Below are positions 8,139 through 18,892 of a stretch of DNA of 38,993 nt, in pieces. The notes beneath the pieces are model-generated. The model was not told the origin of the DNA. It was given only the letters and a program-made list of their open reading frames with translations, and did no database searches. Position numbers and translations under genes: made by a program. Source of the stretch: Dehalococcoidia bacterium (GTDB taxonomy: Bacteria; Chloroflexota; Dehalococcoidia; GIF9; UBA5629). How positions within the stretch are numbered: position 1 is the stretch's first letter; every line of letters begins with the position of its first letter. The stretch spans positions 1 to 38,993 of the forward strand of contig JAFGHL010000072.1 of the NCBI GenBank assembly GCA_016930155.1, in the 5' to 3' direction.

Positions 8139-9332
8139 ATGGCAGAAGGAATTAGAGATAAAGTAGCCATAATCGGAATGGGCTGCACCAAGTTTGGAGA
8201 GCGTTTCGATGTTGGACCGCAGGATCTCATTGTGGAAGCGTTTACTGAATGCCTGCAGGATGCGGGCATTGAAAAGAAGGCTATACAGGCAGCCTGGTGG
8301 GGCGTGCACATGCCGGATATCAGCGTGGGCCGCGGCGCCACTGTGCTGAGCATGGCACTCAAGCTCCCCTTTATTCCGGTCACGAGGGTGGAGAATTTCT
8401 GTGCCACCGGTTCCGAAGCCCTGCGCGGGGCTGTCTACGCAGTTGCATCAGGCGCCTATGATATCTGTCTGGCGCTTGGCATGGAGAAGCTGAAGGACAC
8501 CGGCTACGCCGGGCTGCCCCTGGCCGGCGGTATGGGCTACAAGGCGCCCTTGTTCATGTTTAACCTGACCGCGCCGGGCGGTTTCGCCATGATGGCTACA
8601 AAGTATTTCTCGCAGTATAACCTCAGCCCGCAGGATGGCAAGGCGATGCTGGCCAAGGTCTCGGCCAAGAGTCACAAGAACGGCGCTCTAAATCCCAAAG
8701 CGCACCTGCGTAAAGAGGTTACTGTGGAGCAAATCATAAATGCACCTATTATCGCCTGGCCGCTGGGCCTTTTCGACTGCTGCGGTGTGAGCGACGGCGC
8801 TGCCGCTGCCATAGTCTGCCGGGCCGATATGGCCAAGAAGTTCAGGCAGGACCCTGTATTGGTGAAATCCATGCAGATATCGGTGTCTTCAGGAGAAGAA
8901 ATGTACTATACCAAATGGGATGGGTCACATGTGGAGACAGCATACCGCGCCGGGATTGCAGCTTATAAAGAGGCCGGGATCAAGAATCCGCGCGAAGAGG
9001 TCAGTATGGCGGAGGTACACGATTGCTTTTCAATTACGGAAGCAGTCACCATGGAGGACCTGCAGTTTAGCCCCAGGGGCAAGGTTAAGGACGATATCGA
9101 AGCCGGACGCTTTAATTCGGACGGCGCTCAGCCCATACAGATCGACGGTGGCCTCAAGTGTTTCGGCCATCCTATCGGCGCCAGCGGCCTGAGGATGATG
9201 TACGAGATGTACAAGCAGCTGCAGGGCAAGGCCGACAAGCGGCAGTTAAAGGATCCCAAGATCGGCCTGACCCACAATATGGGCGGATTCCCAGCGATGA
9301 ATGTTGTCAGCGTCTGCATCGTCGGCAAATAA
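8139..9332 (+). CDS. Thiolase family protein (SCP2/acetyl-CoA acetyltransferase type)
   Basis: VENFCATGSEALRGAVYAVASG (nucleophile Cys), EVHDCFSITE, CFGHPIGASGLRM; SD AAGGAGG. Confidence 0.92.
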   Translation: MAEGIRDKVAIIGMGCTKFGERFDVGPQDLIVEAFTECLQDAGIEKKAIQAAWWGVHMPDISVGRGATVLSMALKLPFIPVTRVENFCATGSEALRGAVYAVASGAYDICLALGMEKLKDTGYAGLPLAGGMGYKAPLFMFNLTAPGGFAMMATKYFSQYNLSPQDGKAMLAKVSAKSHKNGALNPKAHLRKEVTVEQIINAPIIAWPLGLFDCCGVSDGAAAAIVCRADMAKKFRQDPVLVKSMQISVSSGEEMYYTKWDGSHVETAYRAGIAAYKEAGIKNPREEVSMAEVHDCFSITEAVTMEDLQFSPRGKVKDDIEAGRFNSDGAQPIQIDGGLKCFGHPIGASGLRMMYEMYKQLQGKADKRQLKDPKIGLTHNMGGFPAMNVVSVCIVGK

Positions 9333-9358
9333 AGGTATAATTCGGGAGGTTTTGTTAA

Positions 9359-9829
9359 ATGGCAGTATTTACTGTTACAGATAGTCTGAAACAGCTAATC
9401 GGGCAAAAAGAGCCTCCGGTTGTTTTTAAGGTCGAAGAGGGCGCTATCCAGAGGTATGCCCAGGCGGTCGGCGATAAGAACCCACTGCATTCAGATGTCG
9501 AATGGGCAGCCAACAGCAAGTGGGGTCGCGTGATGGCCCCGCCCGGATTCATGGGGTGGCCTATCTCAACCGGGTTTAATTTATTCAAGCTCTTCGAAAA
9601 GCTGATGAAGGCCGGTGCCCCCATGGGGCTGCTGGATGGAGGCGTTGAGTACGATTTCCTGGCGCCCATCGGCGCAGGCGATATTCTGGTTGCCGAGATC
9701 ATGGTCGCCAGCATTGAAGGACGTGAGACAAAAATGGGCCCGACCATGGTGACCACGCTTCAATCCACCTATACAAACCAGAGGGGAGCCGTTGTGCTCG
9801 TTGTGCGCAACACCTTCCTCAACTTCTAA
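9359..9829 (+). CDS. MaoC/FAS1-like dehydratase domain protein
   Basis: YAQAVGDKNPLHSDVEWAA hydratase-type motif; SD GGGAGG; 156 aa. Confidence 0.85.
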   Translation: MAVFTVTDSLKQLIGQKEPPVVFKVEEGAIQRYAQAVGDKNPLHSDVEWAANSKWGRVMAPPGFMGWPISTGFNLFKLFEKLMKAGAPMGLLDGGVEYDFLAPIGAGDILVAEIMVASIEGRETKMGPTMVTTLQSTYTNQRGAVVLVVRNTFLNF

Positions 9830-9859
9830 GACAGCCTGTTATTAATATGTGGAGGAACT

Positions 9860-10321
9860 ATGGCCAAACAGATTTTTTATGAAGATGTACAGGTAGGCAG
9901 TGAAGTAACAACACTGGAGAAAATAGCTACAACCAGGATGCTGGTGCAGTATGCCGGGGCATCGGGTGACTTTAACCCGCTTCATTACGAGGAGGATTTT
10001 GCCAAGAACTTGGGCGTGGGCAGGCCTATCGTGCATGGACTGCTCAAGAGGGCCTGGCTGGTGAACCTGATGACCGACTGGATCGGCCAGGAAGGTACGC
10101 TTAAGCGGCTATCATGTAGATACCGTGGCATGGATTATCCTCGCAAGATGAAGACCTTCGAGGATCCGGTTGACGGCGATACCTGGTATTGCAAGGGTAA
10201 AGTCACCAAGAAGAACGACGCAGACAGTACGGTGGAATGCGAGATCTGGGTCGAGAATACCAAAGGCGAGAAGAACACCACCGGCGCTGCGACCGTGCTG
10301 CTGCCCTCCAAGGCGAAATAA
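9860..10321 (+). CDS. MaoC-like hydratase
   Basis: YAGASGDFNPLHYEEDFAKNLGVGRPIVHGLL motif; SD GGAGG. Confidence 0.88.
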   Translation: MAKQIFYEDVQVGSEVTTLEKIATTRMLVQYAGASGDFNPLHYEEDFAKNLGVGRPIVHGLLKRAWLVNLMTDWIGQEGTLKRLSCRYRGMDYPRKMKTFEDPVDGDTWYCKGKVTKKNDADSTVECEIWVENTKGEKNTTGAATVLLPSKAK

Positions 10322-10350
10322 TCTCGCAACTTTAAAAAAAACACGAAATT

Positions 10351-10398
10351 GAACATCGCCGGCTGAACGTCGATATAGAATCGAAGCCGGCGATGTTC
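10351..10398. repeat. Perfect 14-bp inverted repeat plus inner 5-bp stem (strong hairpin)
   Basis: GAACATCGCCGGCT (10351-10364) and AGCCGGCGATGTTC (10385-10398) exact reverse complements; inner TCGAT/ATCGA (10370-10374/10380-10384), GAACG bulge. Confidence 0.9.
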
Positions 10399-10439
10399 CG
10401 TAATTACCCGGTATGGCGAATGGTTCAAGAGAGGACAAA

Positions 10440-10910
10440 ATGGCTGAATTCGTTCTGACTGAAGCGCTGAAGCAAATGATCGGCAGGGAAGAGCCGCTCC
10501 TTATATATAAGGTAGAAGAGGGCGACATACAGCGTTACGCGCAGGCTGTCGCCGACTCGAATCCTATGTACAGCGACGTAGAATACGCTGCGCGAAGCTC
10601 TTTCGGACGGTTGAAAGCGCCGCCCGGCTTTGTAGGATGGCCGGTTACCAGCGGGTTTGATATGTTTCAGTTTGTTGAGAAGCTCATCGCTGCCGGAGCT
10701 CCGAGAGGGAATCTGGATGGCGGCATGGAATATGAGTTTCTGGCCCCTATAGGGGCAGGTGATACATTGGCTGCGTGTATCAAAATTGCCAGCATCGTGG
10801 GAAAGGAAACGAAGCTGGGCCCGACCATGTCGACCACGGTCGAGATCACATACACCAACCAGCGCGGAGCCGTGGCTCTAATAGCCCGCCACACCTTCCT
10901 CAGTTTCTGA
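10440..10910 (+). CDS. MaoC/FAS1-like dehydratase paralog of 9359..9829
   Basis: MAEFVLTEALKQMIGREEP... aligns without gaps to the 9359 protein (both 156 aa from ATG 10440); NPMYSD replaces NPLHSD. Confidence 0.85.
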   Translation: MAEFVLTEALKQMIGREEPLLIYKVEEGDIQRYAQAVADSNPMYSDVEYAARSSFGRLKAPPGFVGWPVTSGFDMFQFVEKLIAAGAPRGNLDGGMEYEFLAPIGAGDTLAACIKIASIVGKETKLGPTMSTTVEITYTNQRGAVALIARHTFLSF

Positions 10911-10979
10911 CGGAAATACGCAGTTCTACGTAGTAACATTTCCGGCGTCCTCGTCTTATAATAATTAGGGTGAATAAAT

Positions 10980-11681
10980 ATGATTAATATCGTACTCGCA
11001 TATGTCATCGCCGCTATCGAAAGCTACCTGTTGGGCTGTATACCGTCGGCCTACCTGGTGGGCAAATCATTCAAGGGCGTGGATATACGCCAGGTAGGCA
11101 GCCGCAATATGGGCGCCATGAATACCTTTTATGCCATCGGGTTCTGGCCCGGTATGCTGGTACTGGCCACAGATATCTGCAAGGCCATGCTGGCCCTCAC
11201 ATTGAGCTATTTCACGGCCGTGTTGTTACAGGTGCCGCCTGACGTTGTTGTCCCTGTTGAGATGGTCGCCGGCATTGCAGTCATAGCCGGACACAATTTT
11301 CCGGTCTTCCTCAAGTTCAAGGGTGGAAAAGGAGGCGCCACGGCCATAGGCGTACTGGCCTTCCTGTTGGCCTGGATCAACTGGGTGGATATCGGCTCCG
11401 TCAAGTTCCCCATCCCTTTGGGCGATCTCATCTACCTTGCCTCTTTTCTGATCCTGATGGCCATAACTCGCTGGCCGACTATTTCCTACGCTGTATCCTA
11501 TATTGCATTCTGGCTTATCGCCTGGTTCGTATACAAGGATACGGGGCTGTTTATCTACAGTATCTTCTTAAGCCTCGTGCCGATCCTGATGTATATACCC
11601 CGCATCAAGGAGATCTGGAATAAATCTGGCGGTAATGCCAAGAGGGCTATTTTCAGGACCAATCTGAAAGACAGGATGTAA
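10980..11681 (+). CDS. PlsY-family glycerol-3-phosphate acyltransferase
   Basis: LLGCIPSAYLVGKSFKGVDIRQVGSRNMGAMNTF and AGHNFPVFLKFKGGKGGATAIG are PlsY motifs. Confidence 0.88.
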   Translation: MINIVLAYVIAAIESYLLGCIPSAYLVGKSFKGVDIRQVGSRNMGAMNTFYAIGFWPGMLVLATDICKAMLALTLSYFTAVLLQVPPDVVVPVEMVAGIAVIAGHNFPVFLKFKGGKGGATAIGVLAFLLAWINWVDIGSVKFPIPLGDLIYLASFLILMAITRWPTISYAVSYIAFWLIAWFVYKDTGLFIYSIFLSLVPILMYIPRIKEIWNKSGGNAKRAIFRTNLKDRM

Positions 11682-11689
11682 ACCGTTTC

Positions 11690-12685
11690 TCAACGGGAAA
11701 ACGGATGGCCTTCGCGGTGGAAATCCGGCAGGTAATGCTCCGCCGAATCCAGTTGCTGAAGCCAGCCGTTATCCAGGCCAAGGCTGTTTACAATCTCCAC
11801 CACCACGCGGTACTCGCTGGCAGTTACTCGTCTCGCCAGCAGCGGCTCACGTGATGCATGATGGCAGGGGTAGTATTGCGCCATGATACTCAGTGTGACG
11901 TCCCGCGATAGAGCCGCAGCTACCCACTTCAATGAGTCCTCGCTTCCCGCCAGCCTGTTGGGCAGTATCAGGTGACGTATAATCAGCCCACTTTGGGCGA
12001 TACCTTTATCGTCCGTAATCAGGTTGCCAACCTGTCGGTACATCTCCGCTATAGCCAGCCGGCTGTATTCGGCATATTTGCGGGCATCGGAGAATCTTTG
12101 TGCCCATTTATCGGAAGCGTATTTGATATCGGGGAGATAAATGTCGACAACTCCGTCCAGTGCAGAGATGGTTTCTAAGGAATCGTAAGCGTTGGTGTTG
12201 TATACGATAGGAATATTGAGTCCCAGCGGCACCGCCTGACAGATCGCTTCCACAATCTGGGGCACGTAATGAGTGGGGGAGACCAGATTAATATTATGGC
12301 ATTGCAATTCCTCCTGCAGGTAAAGCATCATCTGCGCCAGGCCGCGGCTGTCAACCTGTTCATAACGACCGTGTCCCTGGCTGATCTGGCTGTTCTGGCA
12401 GTAGATGCAGTTCAGGTTGCAGCTGCTGAAAAATATAGTTCCCGAGCCCCTTGTCCCTGAGAGCGCCGGCTCCTCTCCGTGATGGGCGCAGCGGCTGGCC
12501 ACCGATACCATCATACCCGATTTACAGTATCCGCCGCTGCCTTCAAAACGGTTAACACCGCAGGAACGCGGACAAATATCGCAAGCGCCCAGGCGTTTGG
12601 ATAGAGCTTCAGCTCTCTTCTGCAATTCACCTGATCTGAAGAGCAAGTGGTACCTTCGTTTTAAGGCCGCACGATAATATTGCAT
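11690..12685 (-). CDS. Radical SAM protein, PflX/pyruvate-formate-lyase-activase-like
   Basis: CDICPRSCGVNRFEGSGGYCKSG and radical SAM CNLNCIYCQN motif (CxxxCxxC). Confidence 0.9.
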   Translation of the reverse strand: MQYYRAALKRRYHLLFRSGELQKRAEALSKRLGACDICPRSCGVNRFEGSGGYCKSGMMVSVASRCAHHGEEPALSGTRGSGTIFFSSCNLNCIYCQNSQISQGHGRYEQVDSRGLAQMMLYLQEELQCHNINLVSPTHYVPQIVEAICQAVPLGLNIPIVYNTNAYDSLETISALDGVVDIYLPDIKYASDKWAQRFSDARKYAEYSRLAIAEMYRQVGNLITDDKGIAQSGLIIRHLILPNRLAGSEDSLKWVAAALSRDVTLSIMAQYYPCHHASREPLLARRVTASEYRVVVEIVNSLGLDNGWLQQLDSAEHYLPDFHREGHPFSR

Positions 12686-12840: not shown

Positions 12841-14376
12841 ATGGCTAAGTACATAGTTGCGCACGACGTCGGCACCAGCAACAGCAAGGCTGTACTTGTG
12901 GATGTAGAAGGTAAAGTACATGGCAGGGTTGTCAGCCCTTACGATATTAAATATCCCAAACCCGGCTGGGCCGAGCAGGATCCGGAAGATTGGTGGAAGG
13001 CCATGATGACCTCAACAAAACAGCTCATGGCTGAGACCGGCGTATCCCCGACTGATATATTGTGCGTCGTCAATTCCACACAATTAATCGGTATAGTGCC
13101 TGTGGACGATGCAGGTGCCGTGCTTAGGCCCGGTATAATCTGGCTCGACAGCAGGGCTCCCGAGGAGGCCAGGTGGGTCATGAATAAATTCCTCGGGCCC
13201 GCCGTTTTTACCGCCATAGCCGGCGCGTCTATCACCGGCAAGGATGGAATTCCCAAGCTGCTCTGGCTTAAAAAGAACGAGCCTGACGTATACAGGCGGA
13301 TGAAGTATTTCCTGGATGTGAGTGGTTATCTTAACTACCGGTGCACAGGCAAAATGCTTATGAGCCGGAGCAACGCCTCGGCTTTCGGGCTTGACCTGAA
13401 GAAAAAAAACTGGATGGAAATGATTTTTGGCTATGTAGGTTTCGATACCAGGAAACTGGCTCCGCTGTGCGATTCAACTGATAAGATAGGCGGATTGACA
13501 CGCGAGGCCGCCTCGCTGATGGGTTTGATTGAGGGTACACCTGTTATGGGAGGTACCGGCGACATACAATCGGCGGCGGTGGGCTCAGGCGCTATGGGTG
13601 AGGGTGGAGGGCATATCAGTATGGGCACCTCGGCCTGGGTGGGTGTGGTGACAGAGAAAATCCTGTCGGGTAAAAGCGGCGTTGTCAGCACGCAATCGGC
13701 CGATCCAGGCAAGATACTTCTGTTGGGTCAGATGGAGTTGGCCGGGGGTTGTCTCCGCTGGCTGGGTGATGAGATGTGCAGGCTGGAGAAATCCGATGCA
13801 AATATGACCAATATATTCGGTTTTATGGACACCAGGGTGGAACAGGTGCCGGCAGGGTCCGATTACCTGATATTTACACCCTGGATGTATGGCGAAAGAG
13901 CCCCGGTGGCCGATGCTTTTATCCGTTCCGGCTTCTATAACCTGACTCCGGAACATACACGCGAACATTTAATTAAAGCGGTCTATGAGGGTGTAGCCTA
14001 CAATTTGAGATGGATAATAGAGGTGGTCGAGAAAAAGTTCAAATTCCCGCTGCCTTCTCTGCGCGTTATAGGTGGCGGGGCCCTGGGACATCCCTGGATG
14101 CAGGTACTTGCCGATGTGACCGGAAAGAAGATTCAGCCTGTGCGGAATCCGCAGGAAGCCGGGGCGGTCGGAGCCGCCATGACGGCGGCGGTGGGACTGG
14201 GTATCTACAAGGACTTTGAGAGCCTGAAGGATGTGGTTTCCGCTGAGTTCACGTTTGAACCGAGGCCTGCCAACCGGGAGATATACGATTTTCTCTATCC
14301 TCTCTATAAAGAGCTTTACACAGATTTGAAGGGCTTCTACACCAGGATTAATAAAGATCGTTGCGAAAAGGTATAA
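12841..14376 (+). CDS. FGGY-family carbohydrate kinase (xylulokinase-like)
   Basis: YIVAHDVGTSNSKAVLVD, PGWAEQDPEDWW, GIIWLDSRAPEEARW, LRVIGGGALGHPWMQVLADVTGKKI. Confidence 0.93.
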   Translation: MAKYIVAHDVGTSNSKAVLVDVEGKVHGRVVSPYDIKYPKPGWAEQDPEDWWKAMMTSTKQLMAETGVSPTDILCVVNSTQLIGIVPVDDAGAVLRPGIIWLDSRAPEEARWVMNKFLGPAVFTAIAGASITGKDGIPKLLWLKKNEPDVYRRMKYFLDVSGYLNYRCTGKMLMSRSNASAFGLDLKKKNWMEMIFGYVGFDTRKLAPLCDSTDKIGGLTREAASLMGLIEGTPVMGGTGDIQSAAVGSGAMGEGGGHISMGTSAWVGVVTEKILSGKSGVVSTQSADPGKILLLGQMELAGGCLRWLGDEMCRLEKSDANMTNIFGFMDTRVEQVPAGSDYLIFTPWMYGERAPVADAFIRSGFYNLTPEHTREHLIKAVYEGVAYNLRWIIEVVEKKFKFPLPSLRVIGGGALGHPWMQVLADVTGKKIQPVRNPQEAGAVGAAMTAAVGLGIYKDFESLKDVVSAEFTFEPRPANREIYDFLYPLYKELYTDLKGFYTRINKDRCEKV

Positions 14377-14391
14377 AGAAGGAGGGCGATC

Positions 14392-15696
14392 ATGAACAGA
14401 GAAGATATGCTGAGCCAGCCTGTAGCACTGCCCGACGGGGTGGATTACGATGAATATATCATCGGCACCTACGTTGTCACAGGTCCAGCCGGATTACCCA
14501 TGGCCAAGGTGGCGCCTTTCCTGGCTGTCGAGCAGAGCACAGGCACCTGGGTGGCTGTGCCGGGCGAGACGCCCGAGGTTCGCAGACAACACGTGGCCAA
14601 GGTGATAGGTGTATATGAGTTGCCAGACTATGAGTTCGGCCTGCCGGCCGGATTGCAGGAAAGGAGCTGGTTTGTCCAGATGGCGTTCCCACTGGTCAAC
14701 ATAGGCTCACAGATTCCCATGATGCTGACCGCCGTTGTAGGCAACATATCCATGGCAGGACAGATCAAGCTGGTCGACGTAAGGTTCCCCAGGAAATACG
14801 TTGCAGGCTTCAAGGGGCCCAAGTTCGGCATTGACGGCATACGTAAACTGCTGGGCGTCAAGAAGAGGCCTCTGCTCAATAACATGGTCAAACCCTGCAC
14901 CGGCTATCCGCTGGAGGTGGGCGCCGAGCTTTTCAAACTGGCTGCGATGGGTGGATGCGATATCATTAAAGACGACGAACTGATAGCAGATGCTTCGTTC
15001 AACTCTATGGCCGGACGTGTCAAGCGCTATATGCAGATCGAAAAGCAGGTCTACGAGAAGACGGGCGAACATACCCTTTATTCTGTAAATGTGAGCGACA
15101 GTGTGCCCAAGGTTTTCGAAAATGCCCGGCGGGCCGTGGAGCTGGGCGCCAACGCCATCATGCTGAACTACGTGGCCGTTGGTCTGACCGTTCTGCAGGC
15201 TCTTGCGGAGGATCCGAAGATCAATGTGCCCATTTTGGCCCACATGGACGTTGCCGGCGCACTTTATATGTCGCCTCTGCATGGCATAAGCTCGCATCTG
15301 GTGCTTGGTAAATTGCCGCGCCTGGCCGGCGCGGATATAGTGGTTATACCTGCCCCGTATGGAAAGGCTCCTGTCATCTCTGATAAATTCGAAACGATGG
15401 CCAGGAATCTAACATACCCGCTGTACCAGTTGAAGCCCACATGGCCGATGGCGTCCGGCGGTATAACACCTACCATGGTACCCAAGGTTATGCAAGTTCT
15501 GGGCAACGACATCGTTATCGGCTCCGGCGGTGGCATTCACGCCCATCCGCAGGGTCCGGTAGCAGGCGGCAAGGCTTTCCGCCAGGCTATCGATGCTACC
15601 ATGAAGGGCATTTCACTCGAAGAATATGCCAAGACGCACAAGGAGCTGGCAGCCATAGTCAACCTGTGGGGCGACCCGTTCAAAAAGGGCGTGTAA
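14392..15696 (+). CDS. RuBisCO-like protein (form IV-type large-subunit homolog)
   Basis: VEQSTGTWVAVP, MVKPCTGYPLEVGAELFKLAAMGGCDIIKDDE, MASGGITPTMVPKV, IGSGGGIHAHPQGPVAGGKAFRQAI match RuBisCO large-chain motifs with several catalytic positions substituted. Confidence 0.92.
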   Translation: MNREDMLSQPVALPDGVDYDEYIIGTYVVTGPAGLPMAKVAPFLAVEQSTGTWVAVPGETPEVRRQHVAKVIGVYELPDYEFGLPAGLQERSWFVQMAFPLVNIGSQIPMMLTAVVGNISMAGQIKLVDVRFPRKYVAGFKGPKFGIDGIRKLLGVKKRPLLNNMVKPCTGYPLEVGAELFKLAAMGGCDIIKDDELIADASFNSMAGRVKRYMQIEKQVYEKTGEHTLYSVNVSDSVPKVFENARRAVELGANAIMLNYVAVGLTVLQALAEDPKINVPILAHMDVAGALYMSPLHGISSHLVLGKLPRLAGADIVVIPAPYGKAPVISDKFETMARNLTYPLYQLKPTWPMASGGITPTMVPKVMQVLGNDIVIGSGGGIHAHPQGPVAGGKAFRQAIDATMKGISLEEYAKTHKELAAIVNLWGDPFKKGV

Positions 15697-15756
15697 CACG
15701 GTTACCGTCAGACAAAAGAACAGCGCTGATAGCATGTTTAAACATGGAGGACAATC

Positions 15757-17214
15757 ATGACGGAAGAACAACGTTATGCGATTTCTGAGTATCATGACGT
15801 GGATGAGATTTATCGTCGTCTGTATGCCCTGGTAGGCCAGCCCATGAGAAAGATACGGCCGGAAAAAATGCAGGAGTATCTTGATTATTTCGCGTCCAAA
15901 TGCAAACGATCGAAGGCAATGACCGATGAGGCCAAACGTTTTATTCCGGGTGGAGTTCAGCACAACCTGGCCTTTAATCATCCCTTCCCAATTGCTATAA
16001 AGAAAGCGGATGGCCCATACCTCTGGGATGTTGACGGCAACCAATATATCGATTTTCTACAGGCGGGGGGTCCTATAGTTTTAGGTAACAACTACGCGCC
16101 GGTGCGAGAGAAAATCATCGAGCTGCTGCAGACGTGCGAGCCGGTAACCGGGCTGTTTCATGAGTATGAACTGAAGCTGGCCGAATTGATCAACCGCTTT
16201 ATGCCGGCCGTGGAGATGTTCCGCATGCTGGGAACAGGTTCAGAGAGCGTCATGGCGGCTATCCGCGCGGCACGGACGTTCACCAAGAAGAAGAAGGTCA
16301 TCAAGGTCGGCGGCGCCTACCATGGCTGGAGTGACCAGATGGTCTTTGGCATGCACATACCTGGGACTGGTAGGTTTGAAGCTAAGGGCATTCCTCCCGG
16401 CTGCAGTTCCGGTACCCAGGAGTTCTTCCCTAACGACGTGGGCGCATTGAAGCGCCTGCTGGCCAGAAATCGCCTGTTCGGCGGGACGGCCGCCGTCATT
16501 GTGGAACCGGTTGGGCCTGAAAGCGGCACACGTCCGGTGCCCGCAGACTTTAATAAAAAGGTAAGGGATCTTTGTACCGAGTTCGGCGCGCTGCTCATTT
16601 TCGATGAGGTGGTGACAGGATTCAGGCTGGGCATGGGTGGTGCCCAGGGTTATTTCAAAGTAAAACCCGACCTGACCATCTTCGGCAAATGTGTGGCGGG
16701 TGGTTACCCCATGGCTGGTGGAGTTGGAGGTCGGGCAGATATAATACAGTGTTTCGCAGCCGGCATAGGCGGGGCCTCGGCAGAGCGGGCATATGTGGGA
16801 GGTACGCTTTCAGCCAATCCTCTGTCGTGCGCAGCGGGGTATTTCAGTCTGCTTGAGATGGAGAGAACCAACGCGCCGGTGCTTGCCGGAAGGGCGGGTG
16901 ACCGGCTGACCAGGGGACTGCAGTCTATAATAGCCAAATACAAGCTGCCTTTTGTGGTTTATAATCAAGGTTCTATCGTTCACCTGGAGACCTCAGGTGT
17001 AATGCTGCTTGATTTCCGCAATCCCCTGAAGCTTTTAAAGGAGATGAAGCCGCGCAAGCATATGATTGAAGAGATGGGCGCGGCCTACATGGCTAACGGA
17101 CTGATAACGCTGGCCGGCTCAAGGGTGTATACAAGCATGGCCGATACGAATGCCGTGATTGACGATGCACTTGCCAGGTTTGAGAGAGTATTTTCAAGTA
17201 TTGAAGGTGTATAG
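15757..17214 (+). CDS. Class III aminotransferase, glutamate-1-semialdehyde-2,1-aminomutase-like
   Basis: AKRFIPGGVQHNLAF, GSESVMAAIRAARTFT, YHGWSDQ, LIFDEVVTGFRLG, IFGKCVAGGYPMAGGVGGRADI (candidate PLP Lys). Confidence 0.9.
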   Translation: MTEEQRYAISEYHDVDEIYRRLYALVGQPMRKIRPEKMQEYLDYFASKCKRSKAMTDEAKRFIPGGVQHNLAFNHPFPIAIKKADGPYLWDVDGNQYIDFLQAGGPIVLGNNYAPVREKIIELLQTCEPVTGLFHEYELKLAELINRFMPAVEMFRMLGTGSESVMAAIRAARTFTKKKKVIKVGGAYHGWSDQMVFGMHIPGTGRFEAKGIPPGCSSGTQEFFPNDVGALKRLLARNRLFGGTAAVIVEPVGPESGTRPVPADFNKKVRDLCTEFGALLIFDEVVTGFRLGMGGAQGYFKVKPDLTIFGKCVAGGYPMAGGVGGRADIIQCFAAGIGGASAERAYVGGTLSANPLSCAAGYFSLLEMERTNAPVLAGRAGDRLTRGLQSIIAKYKLPFVVYNQGSIVHLETSGVMLLDFRNPLKLLKEMKPRKHMIEEMGAAYMANGLITLAGSRVYTSMADTNAVIDDALARFERVFSSIEGV

Positions 17215-17243
17215 AAAACAAAAGTAATTGGAAGGAGGCCCCA

Positions 17244-17582
17244 TTGGATTTGGCCGAAAAGCAAGCAGGTAATGTCAATGTTCTCTGCGTTGGTGGGAGA
17301 CTGGATGCCTACAGCGCCGCTGAGGCCGAGAAAAAAATCGACTCGCTGATCTCAACAGGAAATGCAAAGATTGTACTGAACCTGGATAACCTGGAATATA
17401 TCAGCAGTTCGGGCCTGCGTGTCTTCCTGGCCCAGCTCAAGAAGGCACGCAAGCAGCAGGGGGATATTAAGCTTTGCTGCATGAAACCGAATATCAAAGA
17501 AGTCTTCGATATCGCCGGATTCACACAACTATTCAATATCGTCGGGGATGAATCTGAGGCCATTGCCGGCTTCAGCGCCTGA
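17244..17582 (+). CDS. STAS-domain anti-sigma-factor-antagonist-like protein
   Basis: TTG start with SD GGAAGGAGG; VGGRLDAYSAAEAEKKI...NLDNLEYISSSGLRVFLAQLKKARKQ with STAS Ser motif. Confidence 0.88.
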   Translation: MDLAEKQAGNVNVLCVGGRLDAYSAAEAEKKIDSLISTGNAKIVLNLDNLEYISSSGLRVFLAQLKKARKQQGDIKLCCMKPNIKEVFDIAGFTQLFNIVGDESEAIAGFSA

Positions 17583-17584
17583 CT

Positions 17585-18892
17585 ATGCTGACGCCCAAAT
17601 CAGAGTACAGGTGCAAGCTTACCACGCCTGAACGGGCGGTAAGCAGCATCCAAAACGGCAGCACTATCGTGCACGGCTTGGCCGCCGCCGAGCCGCCCGC
17701 TCTTTTACAGGCTTTGGCCGACAGGGTACGCGCAGGCGAACTTTGTGATCTCAAAGTGCATTCATTGTTGCCTACAGAAAACGTTTCTAAAAGCCTGCTT
17801 TCACCCGACATCAGCGATTGCGTGCAGGCCTTCTCGTGGTTCGTCAGTAAATCCTCGCGTTCGGCCGTCAAGGTGGGATTGAATTATTACGTTCCCAACC
17901 ATTTTCATCAGGTGCCGAGGCTGATGCGTGAAAACCTTAATATTGACGTGGTCGTCACCATGGTATCACCCATGGATAAATCCGGCTTCTTTAGCTTCGG
18001 GACTGCCAACGATTACACTTCCACTGTAGCCAGGTGCTGCAAGCGTCTTATCGTGGAGGTGAACAAGAATCAGCCGCGCGTATTCGGCGACTCCCTTCTG
18101 CATATTTCAGATGTGGATGCCATCGTGGAGCATACATCCCCGCTGATCGAATTCAAATGGCCCGGTCCCCGGGCTGAGGACGAAGCCATCGGTAGCCTGG
18201 TCGCCAAACTCGTACCCGACGGAGCAACCCTTCAGTTGGGATTCGGTGCCTTGCCCAATATGATCGCCAGGAAGCTGGTCGATCACAAGGATCTGGGCGT
18301 CCATACAGAGGTTTTCGGCCCGGCCATGGTCGAGCTCATCAAGAAGGGCGTAATTACCGGTCGCAGGAAGAACATGCGCACAGGGAAGCATGTTTTCACC
18401 GTTGCTGAGGGCACAAGCCAGATGTATCGCTTTATGCACGATAATCCCAGCATGGAGAGTTATCCGGTCAGCTATACCAATGACCCGGCTGTCATTGCCG
18501 GTAACGATAATATGATATCGATTAACTCCATTATACAAGTTGATTTGTTGGGGCAATGTAATGCTGAATCACTGGGAGGTTCACAGTACAGCGGCACGGG
18601 TGGCCAGCTTGATTACGTGCGCGGGGCATATAACTCGAGGGGAGGGAAATCCATACTGGCTTTTTATTCCACAGCTAAAAACGGGCAGGTATCGAGGGTG
18701 GTTCCTAGATTGGGCAACGGCGCTGTAATTACTACGCCCAGGATGGATGTGCACTATCTGGTGACCGAATATGGTGTGGTCAACCTGAAAGGCAGATCGA
18801 CCAGGGACCGTGCGCTGGACATAATGCGCATTGCCCATCCCCGCTTCCGCGAATCATTATTACGGGAAGCGGAGAACATGTACCTTCTTTAG
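17585..18892 (+). CDS. Acetyl-CoA hydrolase/4-hydroxybutyrate CoA-transferase family protein
   Basis: LQLGFGALPNMIARKLVDHKDLGVHTEVFGPAMVELIKKGVITG, QYSGTGGQLDYVRGA, VVNLKGRSTRDRALDIMRIAHPRFR. Confidence 0.88.
   Translation: MLTPKSEYRCKLTTPERAVSSIQNGSTIVHGLAAAEPPALLQALADRVRAGELCDLKVHSLLPTENVSKSLLSPDISDCVQAFSWFVSKSSRSAVKVGLNYYVPNHFHQVPRLMRENLNIDVVVTMVSPMDKSGFFSFGTANDYTSTVARCCKRLIVEVNKNQPRVFGDSLLHISDVDAIVEHTSPLIEFKWPGPRAEDEAIGSLVAKLVPDGATLQLGFGALPNMIARKLVDHKDLGVHTEVFGPAMVELIKKGVITGRRKNMRTGKHVFTVAEGTSQMYRFMHDNPSMESYPVSYTNDPAVIAGNDNMISINSIIQVDLLGQCNAESLGGSQYSGTGGQLDYVRGAYNSRGGKSILAFYSTAKNGQVSRVVPRLGNGAVITTPRMDVHYLVTEYGVVNLKGRSTRDRALDIMRIAHPRFRESLLREAENMYLL

Follow-up and report, generated by a model that had tools for sequence, protein, structure and literature searches.

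An FGGY kinase, a RuBisCO-like protein and an interchangeable carbon-nitrogen enzyme form a conserved, apparently undescribed gene module in Dehalococcoidia and other lineages

What does a RuBisCO-like protein (RLP) do when its gene is flanked by those of a sugar-type kinase and a pyridoxal phosphate (PLP) enzyme? The question is raised by contig JAFGHL010000072.1 (C115 in our numbering; 38,993 nucleotides, analysed at full length and referred to as the window) in a Dehalococcoidia (Chloroflexota) draft genome (GCA_016930155.1) of 2.6 Mb, 98% complete and 7.95% contaminated. The initial annotation, made from the nucleotide sequence, described five consecutive plus-strand genes for an FGGY kinase, an RLP, a glutamate-1-semialdehyde aminomutase (GSAM)-like enzyme, a STAS-domain protein and a coenzyme A (CoA)-transferase, and took them for the best candidate for an undescribed system. 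The five open reading frames, with intergenic gaps of 15, 60, 29 and 2 bp, were recovered at positions 12841-18892, and Pfam agreed on every family. The conserved core, however, consists of the kinase, the RLP and one carbon-nitrogen (C-N) enzyme, not of five genes.

The kinase (511 aa; 12841..14376, + strand; Pfam FGGY_N and FGGY_C) is the core partner of the RLP (434 aa; 14392..15696, + strand), in which both RuBisCO_large domains were recognized. Among 100 relatives, the kinase was found in all 28 genomes carrying the core RLP and in 3 of the 72 others (Fisher p 9e-22, shared ancestry ignored), and in the named collection the kinase gene precedes that of the RLP at 40 of 41 bacterial core loci, the exception being at a contig edge. 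In a separate sample, 297 genomes of the Actinomycetota group, the kinase was present at 12 of 12 core loci, a saccharopine-dehydrogenase-like gene at 7 and a GSAM-like gene at 1; the usual gene order there is dehydrogenase-kinase-RLP, unlike that of the window. A close kinase was detected in just 3 of 400 evenly drawn Chloroflexota genomes (the window's own included), and all 3 had the RLP. Co-location of the two genes is far above chance; the pair is uncommon yet closely linked, and the pairing postulated at the outset holds across phyla. The best NCBIfam match of the kinase was XylB, with a score (327.5 bits) under the equivalog cut-off (380.25). A xylulokinase identity was therefore not supported, and the protein was left as an FGGY kinase of unassigned specificity.

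A second FGGY kinase clade (100/100), 35-39% identical to the first, comprises the Asgard kinases, the dehydrogenase-adjacent kinases of Dehalococcoidia and one kinase from Cryosericum (the misframed row L153 was disregarded in this tree). Four loci (L101, L102, L103 and L112) combine a second FGGY kinase, of about 35% identity, with a saccharopine-dehydrogenase-like gene and have no RLP alongside. Some loci are irregular. Kinase and RLP are both split in G021 (L083), as is a second kinase copy in G005 (L104), through decay or assembly error. Thermoflexia-type loci (L061, L063, L064) have a frame of 300-490 aa between kinase and RLP, which may be spurious; it had no Pfam match in L064, the sole member tested. 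A second RLP gene, 85% identical, lies at about 857-2146 of contig C129 of genome G000 (L002/L108); it is preceded by a TetR gene located at the edge of the contig. Because a similar TetR gene sits between kinase and RLP in L037, C129 may hold a truncated duplicate of the locus; alternatively, it may be a contaminant (7.95% of this genome is estimated to be contamination).

The third member of the core is not a fixed enzyme. At orthologue-level identity, 13 of the 28 RLP genomes have the GSAM-like gene as third partner, 12 have the saccharopine-dehydrogenase-like gene and none has both; in the remaining 3 the RLP is at a contig end. The partner can differ within a genus (G008 and G022) and between sisters, Cryosericum (L053) having the GSAM-like gene and Caldiserica UBA4770 (L065) the dehydrogenase, and parsimony on the RLP tree requires at least 7 switches. 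In Anaerolineae a different class III aminotransferase gene directly precedes the kinase. The modelled dehydrogenase (pLDDT 91.1) folds like carboxyspermidine dehydrogenase, lysine dehydrogenase and saccharopine reductase. Since PLP enzymes of two kinds and an NAD(P)-type enzyme swap places, the gene context implies that they fill one common C-N step.

In the window this position is taken by the GSAM-like enzyme (485 aa; 15757..17214, + strand), a class III PLP enzyme with a Pfam Aminotran_3 domain (177 bits) and a PLP lysine conserved in a GKxxxxGYP stretch. The aminomutase label it had been given did not stand up: the score with the hemL model (267.6 bits) was far under the cut-off (527.3), and a true HemL is encoded elsewhere in the same genome (C9:84370-85632, 601.8 bits). 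Moreover, from Chloroflexota to Lokiarchaeota the substrate-binding motif SPVR is replaced by HNL. A nitrogen-handling enzyme does belong to the set, but the GSAM-like gene as such is exchanged elsewhere for unrelated C-N enzymes.

The last two genes of the array encode a STAS-domain protein (17244..17582, + strand, TTG start), which resembles anti-sigma-factor antagonists (TIGR00377, 84.9 bits, above cut-off), and a CoA-transferase of the butyryl-CoA:acetate type (17585..18892, + strand; Pfam AcetylCoA_hydro and AcetylCoA_hydro_C; TIGR03948, 362 bits with a cut-off of 674.8). Their presence next to the kinase is confined to the window's genus and a few other members of the family, and in G022 (L113) they follow a kinase at a site where there is no RLP. 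Outside that genus, G022 alone was found to have the CoA-transferase. Both are local additions outside the conserved core and, because of this limitation to one lineage, the five genes cannot be regarded as one conserved unit. The idea of an undescribed system stands in reduced form, with fewer and partly exchangeable members; its order of steps, ending with CoA activation, is conjectural.

The phylogenetic position of the RLP was determined with named references. Its relatives form one clade (95/93), which is sister to MtnW (100/97) and lies outside the isoapionate, Chlorobium-type and RuBisCO groups; the core clade reappeared in a larger tree (SH-aLRT 97). Neither tree contains Rhodospirillum rubrum-type RLPs. 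The scores were below the NCBIfam cut-offs for MtnW (TIGR03332, 343 against 513.6; PRK09549, 385.8 against 409), OiaX (195.4 against 700) and form III. Placement inside the MtnW or the isoapionate clade, which together with matching partners would have spoken against an undescribed system, was not observed. The AlphaFold model (pLDDT 87.8) had MtnW structures as its best Foldseek matches. Carriers of the clade are Dehalococcoidia, Anaerolineae, Thermoflexia, Cryosericota/Caldisericota, Actinomycetota and Asgard archaea (Hel-, Loki-, Thor- and Hodarchaeota), and the named relatives with 84-92% RLP identity are metagenome-assembled genomes (MAGs) of Dehalococcoidia and other Chloroflexota. A different RLP clade (about 40% identity, K334 replaced by T) was seen at four loci of the Actinomycetota sample (L205, L206, L207, L210), with UPF0261, PEP_hydrolase, TIM-barrel or MFS genes as neighbours.

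In RuBisCO numbering, E60, N123, K175, K201, D203, E204, H294, K334 and G381 are conserved in the core clade; S379 is kept in every core row but L059, and W66 is F in Lokiarchaeota. The window's RLP has K193, D195 and E196 as the carbamylated lysine and metal ligands, K167 as the equivalent of K175 and K325 as that of K334, and these are present in all core rows. Compared with RuBisCO of forms I-III, the protein thus retains the carbamylated lysine, the metal ligands, K175 and K334, but not both phosphate sites and K177: all 20 core rows have K177 replaced by C, R295 by M, H298 by A or T and H327 by P. As R295, H298 and H327 are located at the second phosphate of ribulose-1,5-bisphosphate (RuBP), their loss makes it likely that the substrate carries one phosphate. 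Retention of the loop-6 lysine K334, N123 and E60, which are needed for CO2 chemistry, with the second-phosphate site alone lost, makes it conceivable, though improbable in our estimate, that in anaerobic bacteria and Asgard archaea the RLP catalyses formation or cleavage of a C-C bond, through carboxylation, decarboxylation or transcarboxylation, with a mono-phosphorylated ketose of amine origin as substrate. If true, a member of the RuBisCO family would be carrying out carbon chemistry that belongs to neither RuBP nor apiose metabolism.

The gene set, its co-occurrence, the exchange of partners, the clade and the residues are direct observations. In our judgement the operon is, on balance, probably the form taken in Dehalococcoidia by a widespread, undescribed module of three enzymes (FGGY kinase, C-N enzyme and RLP of a distinct clade), which would act on an amine-linked compound of polyol or ketose type, most likely in catabolism. 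The compound taken up would be small, resembling a polyol or a ketose, and would either bear an amino group or acquire one on the way. Uptake is suggested by the MFS transporter genes that adjoin the set in several relatives, for instance those that follow the RLP-GSAM pair in G022 (L109) and the RLP-dehydrogenase pair in L046. The kinase would phosphorylate a terminal CH2OH, and the GSAM-like enzyme, or its counterpart in relatives (the other aminotransferase or the saccharopine-dehydrogenase-like enzyme), would replace the amine by a carbonyl. The RLP would then act on a mono-phosphorylated 2-keto-3-hydroxy (ketose-1-phosphate-like) intermediate: with Mg2+ bound at carbamyl-K193, D195 and E196, K167 would abstract a proton to give an enediolate, which would undergo tautomerization or possibly, as the loop-6 lysine K325 is kept, C-C bond chemistry. 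A ketose-1-phosphate substrate fits the composition of operon L203, which belongs to a sister RLP clade (48-50% identity) and encodes a DeoC-type aldolase, an isomerase-like protein, a rhamnulokinase-like FGGY kinase and a class II aldolase.

Several points weigh against this interpretation. No C-N enzyme is nearby in 4 of the 12 Actinomycetota loci, in several Chloroflexota loci (L051, L066) and at most Lokiarchaeota RLP loci. The Asgard kinases belong to the second clade and are often encoded elsewhere in the genome. The data are mostly MAGs, and the co-occurrence p-values take no account of shared ancestry. Finally, we infer the direction (catabolic or biosynthetic), the order of the steps, the substrate class and the RLP reaction.

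Among the Asgard loci, the RLP is near an FGGY kinase and the dehydrogenase in Thorarchaeota (L073), near an aminotransferase and a kinase in Hodarchaeota (L077) and near a GSAM-like gene in Helarchaeota (L070); at four loci of Loki- and Helarchaeota with the RLP elsewhere in the genome (L152, L153, L154, L162), a related kinase is beside or near a GSAM-like gene.

A rival view, more specific as to the kinase product, is suggested by two genomes of one family. In G007 and G016 an orthologous kinase, which has 58% identity and groups within the kinase clade, is followed, in place of the RLP, by a relative of sphingosine-1-phosphate lyase (SPL; 663 bits with the Symbiobacterium SPL). Neither genome yielded an RLP; both are incomplete. 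If real, this arrangement would point to a 2-amino-1-phosphate as the kinase product. The compound phosphorylated would then be a sphingoid-like or shorter amino-diol, whose phosphate some relatives would cleave with an SPL-type enzyme, whereas RLP carriers would deaminate it and pass a 2-keto-3-hydroxy-1-phosphate to the RLP. This would account for the C-N step and for a product with a RuBP-like head group. Nevertheless, we hold it to be unlikely: the SPL gene is cut by the contig end in one of the two genomes, the family's other SPL relatives (40-45%; L134, L149, L150, L151) sit away from the kinase, beside genes of TauE/SafE-like permeases, and FGGY kinases are not known to accept lipid-like substrates.

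We rate two further explanations a little lower still, and about equally. According to the first, the RLP functions in salvage of 5'-methylthioadenosine or 5'-deoxyadenosine, as a divergent 2,3-diketo-5-methylthiopentyl-1-phosphate enolase or as a 5-methylthioribulose-1-phosphate isomerase of the R. rubrum kind, and the kinase is incidental. MtnW is the nearest characterized group and is likewise without the second-phosphate site, and the R. rubrum type is missing from the tree rows. On the other hand, the RLP is under both MtnW cut-offs, forms a separate clade and keeps E60, N123 and K334, where MtnW has G, K and S. Methionine salvage is also disfavoured because the presence of MtnA is independent of the RLP (19 of 28 genomes with it, 55 of 72 without; p 0.45). 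No methionine-salvage gene was found in the loci examined, and neither an FGGY kinase nor a C-N enzyme has a place in salvage pathways. Thus, methionine salvage is supported by neither cut-offs, tree, residues nor co-occurrence.

The second explanation makes the set biosynthetic: phosphorylation, RLP chemistry and transamination would build an amino-polyol unit such as a lipid or cell-surface head group. Transaminases often stand at the end of routes of this kind, and in the window's family the operon is preceded by genes of lipid metabolism (PlsY, MaoC, thiolase). These genes are, however, conserved in that family only, MFS transporter genes adjoin the set, and an operon of the sister RLP clade encodes aldolases of the sort usual in sugar catabolism. 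As for breakdown of an autoinducer-2-like compound, with the kinase as an LsrK analogue and the RLP enolizing phosphorylated 4,5-dihydroxy-2,3-pentanedione, it is very improbable: LsrK is indeed an FGGY kinase, and its product, a diketone phosphate, is of the kind on which MtnW acts, but LsrK identity was rejected on the low model score (188, cut-off 528, far under the XylB score), the C-N enzyme would have no role, and no LsrF-type thiolase was recognized in the core loci examined.

As to the surroundings of the operon, the gene upstream of the kinase is a radical SAM gene on the minus strand (11690-12685), and the next plus-strand gene begins about 500 bp past the end of the CoA-transferase; on account of these two neighbours the five genes could form a single transcript. 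The first four are preceded by Shine-Dalgarno-like sequences. Promoter-like and terminator-like sites were no commoner in the window than in shuffled sequences. The order of the thiolase, MaoC-like, PlsY and radical SAM genes (8139-12685 of the window; also L035, L037, L083) is kept together with kinase-RLP in the window's family only.

A search of the open-access literature, a coverage that leaves out most subscription journals, found no system matching an RLP with an FGGY kinase, or with a carbohydrate kinase and an aminotransferase. The conserved RLP module, which probably acts in a pathway of phosphorylated-sugar type, is apparently undescribed. Few RLPs have assigned reactions, and new assignments have come from gene context. 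Here the clade is broad (Chloroflexota, Cryosericota/Caldisericota, Actinomycetota and four Asgard groups), and the conserved kinase partner should reveal the substrate; the interchange of PLP enzymes and dehydrogenase narrows one step to amine/carbonyl chemistry. As the RLP clade adjoins MtnW yet keeps residues that MtnW has lost, its reaction bears on the origin of RuBisCO chemistry.

Of the known systems, MtnW (YkrW, the form IV-YkrW enolase) is nearest by sequence (36-40% identity), tree and fold. It shares with the window's RLP the loss of the second-phosphate site, has a mono-phosphorylated substrate, as is likely for the window's RLP too, and differs in its clade, in the three residues E60, N123 and K334 and in its partners, since the window's RLP is accompanied by an FGGY kinase and a C-N enzyme and by no methionine-salvage genes. 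The OiaX or 3-oxo-isoapionate-4-phosphate RLPs of D-apiose catabolism resemble the present one in having a sugar-type kinase partner and K334, and their substrates are mono-phosphorylated, as is likely here; their kinase, however, belongs to DUF1537 (as observed in L115) and not to FGGY, R295 is kept, the clade is different and there is no C-N enzyme. The R. rubrum RLP, which is not in our tree, isomerizes a ketose-1-phosphate, the type of substrate proposed here, in a pathway that uses MtnA and a cupin, neither of which is associated with the window's module. Sugar operons with a rhamnulokinase-type FGGY kinase, an isomerase and a class II aldolase, of which L203 is one, likewise have an FGGY kinase making a ketose-1-phosphate, as would be the case here; in contrast to them, the window's operon has no aldolase or isomerase but a C-N enzyme instead, and its kinase is nearer to the XylB model.

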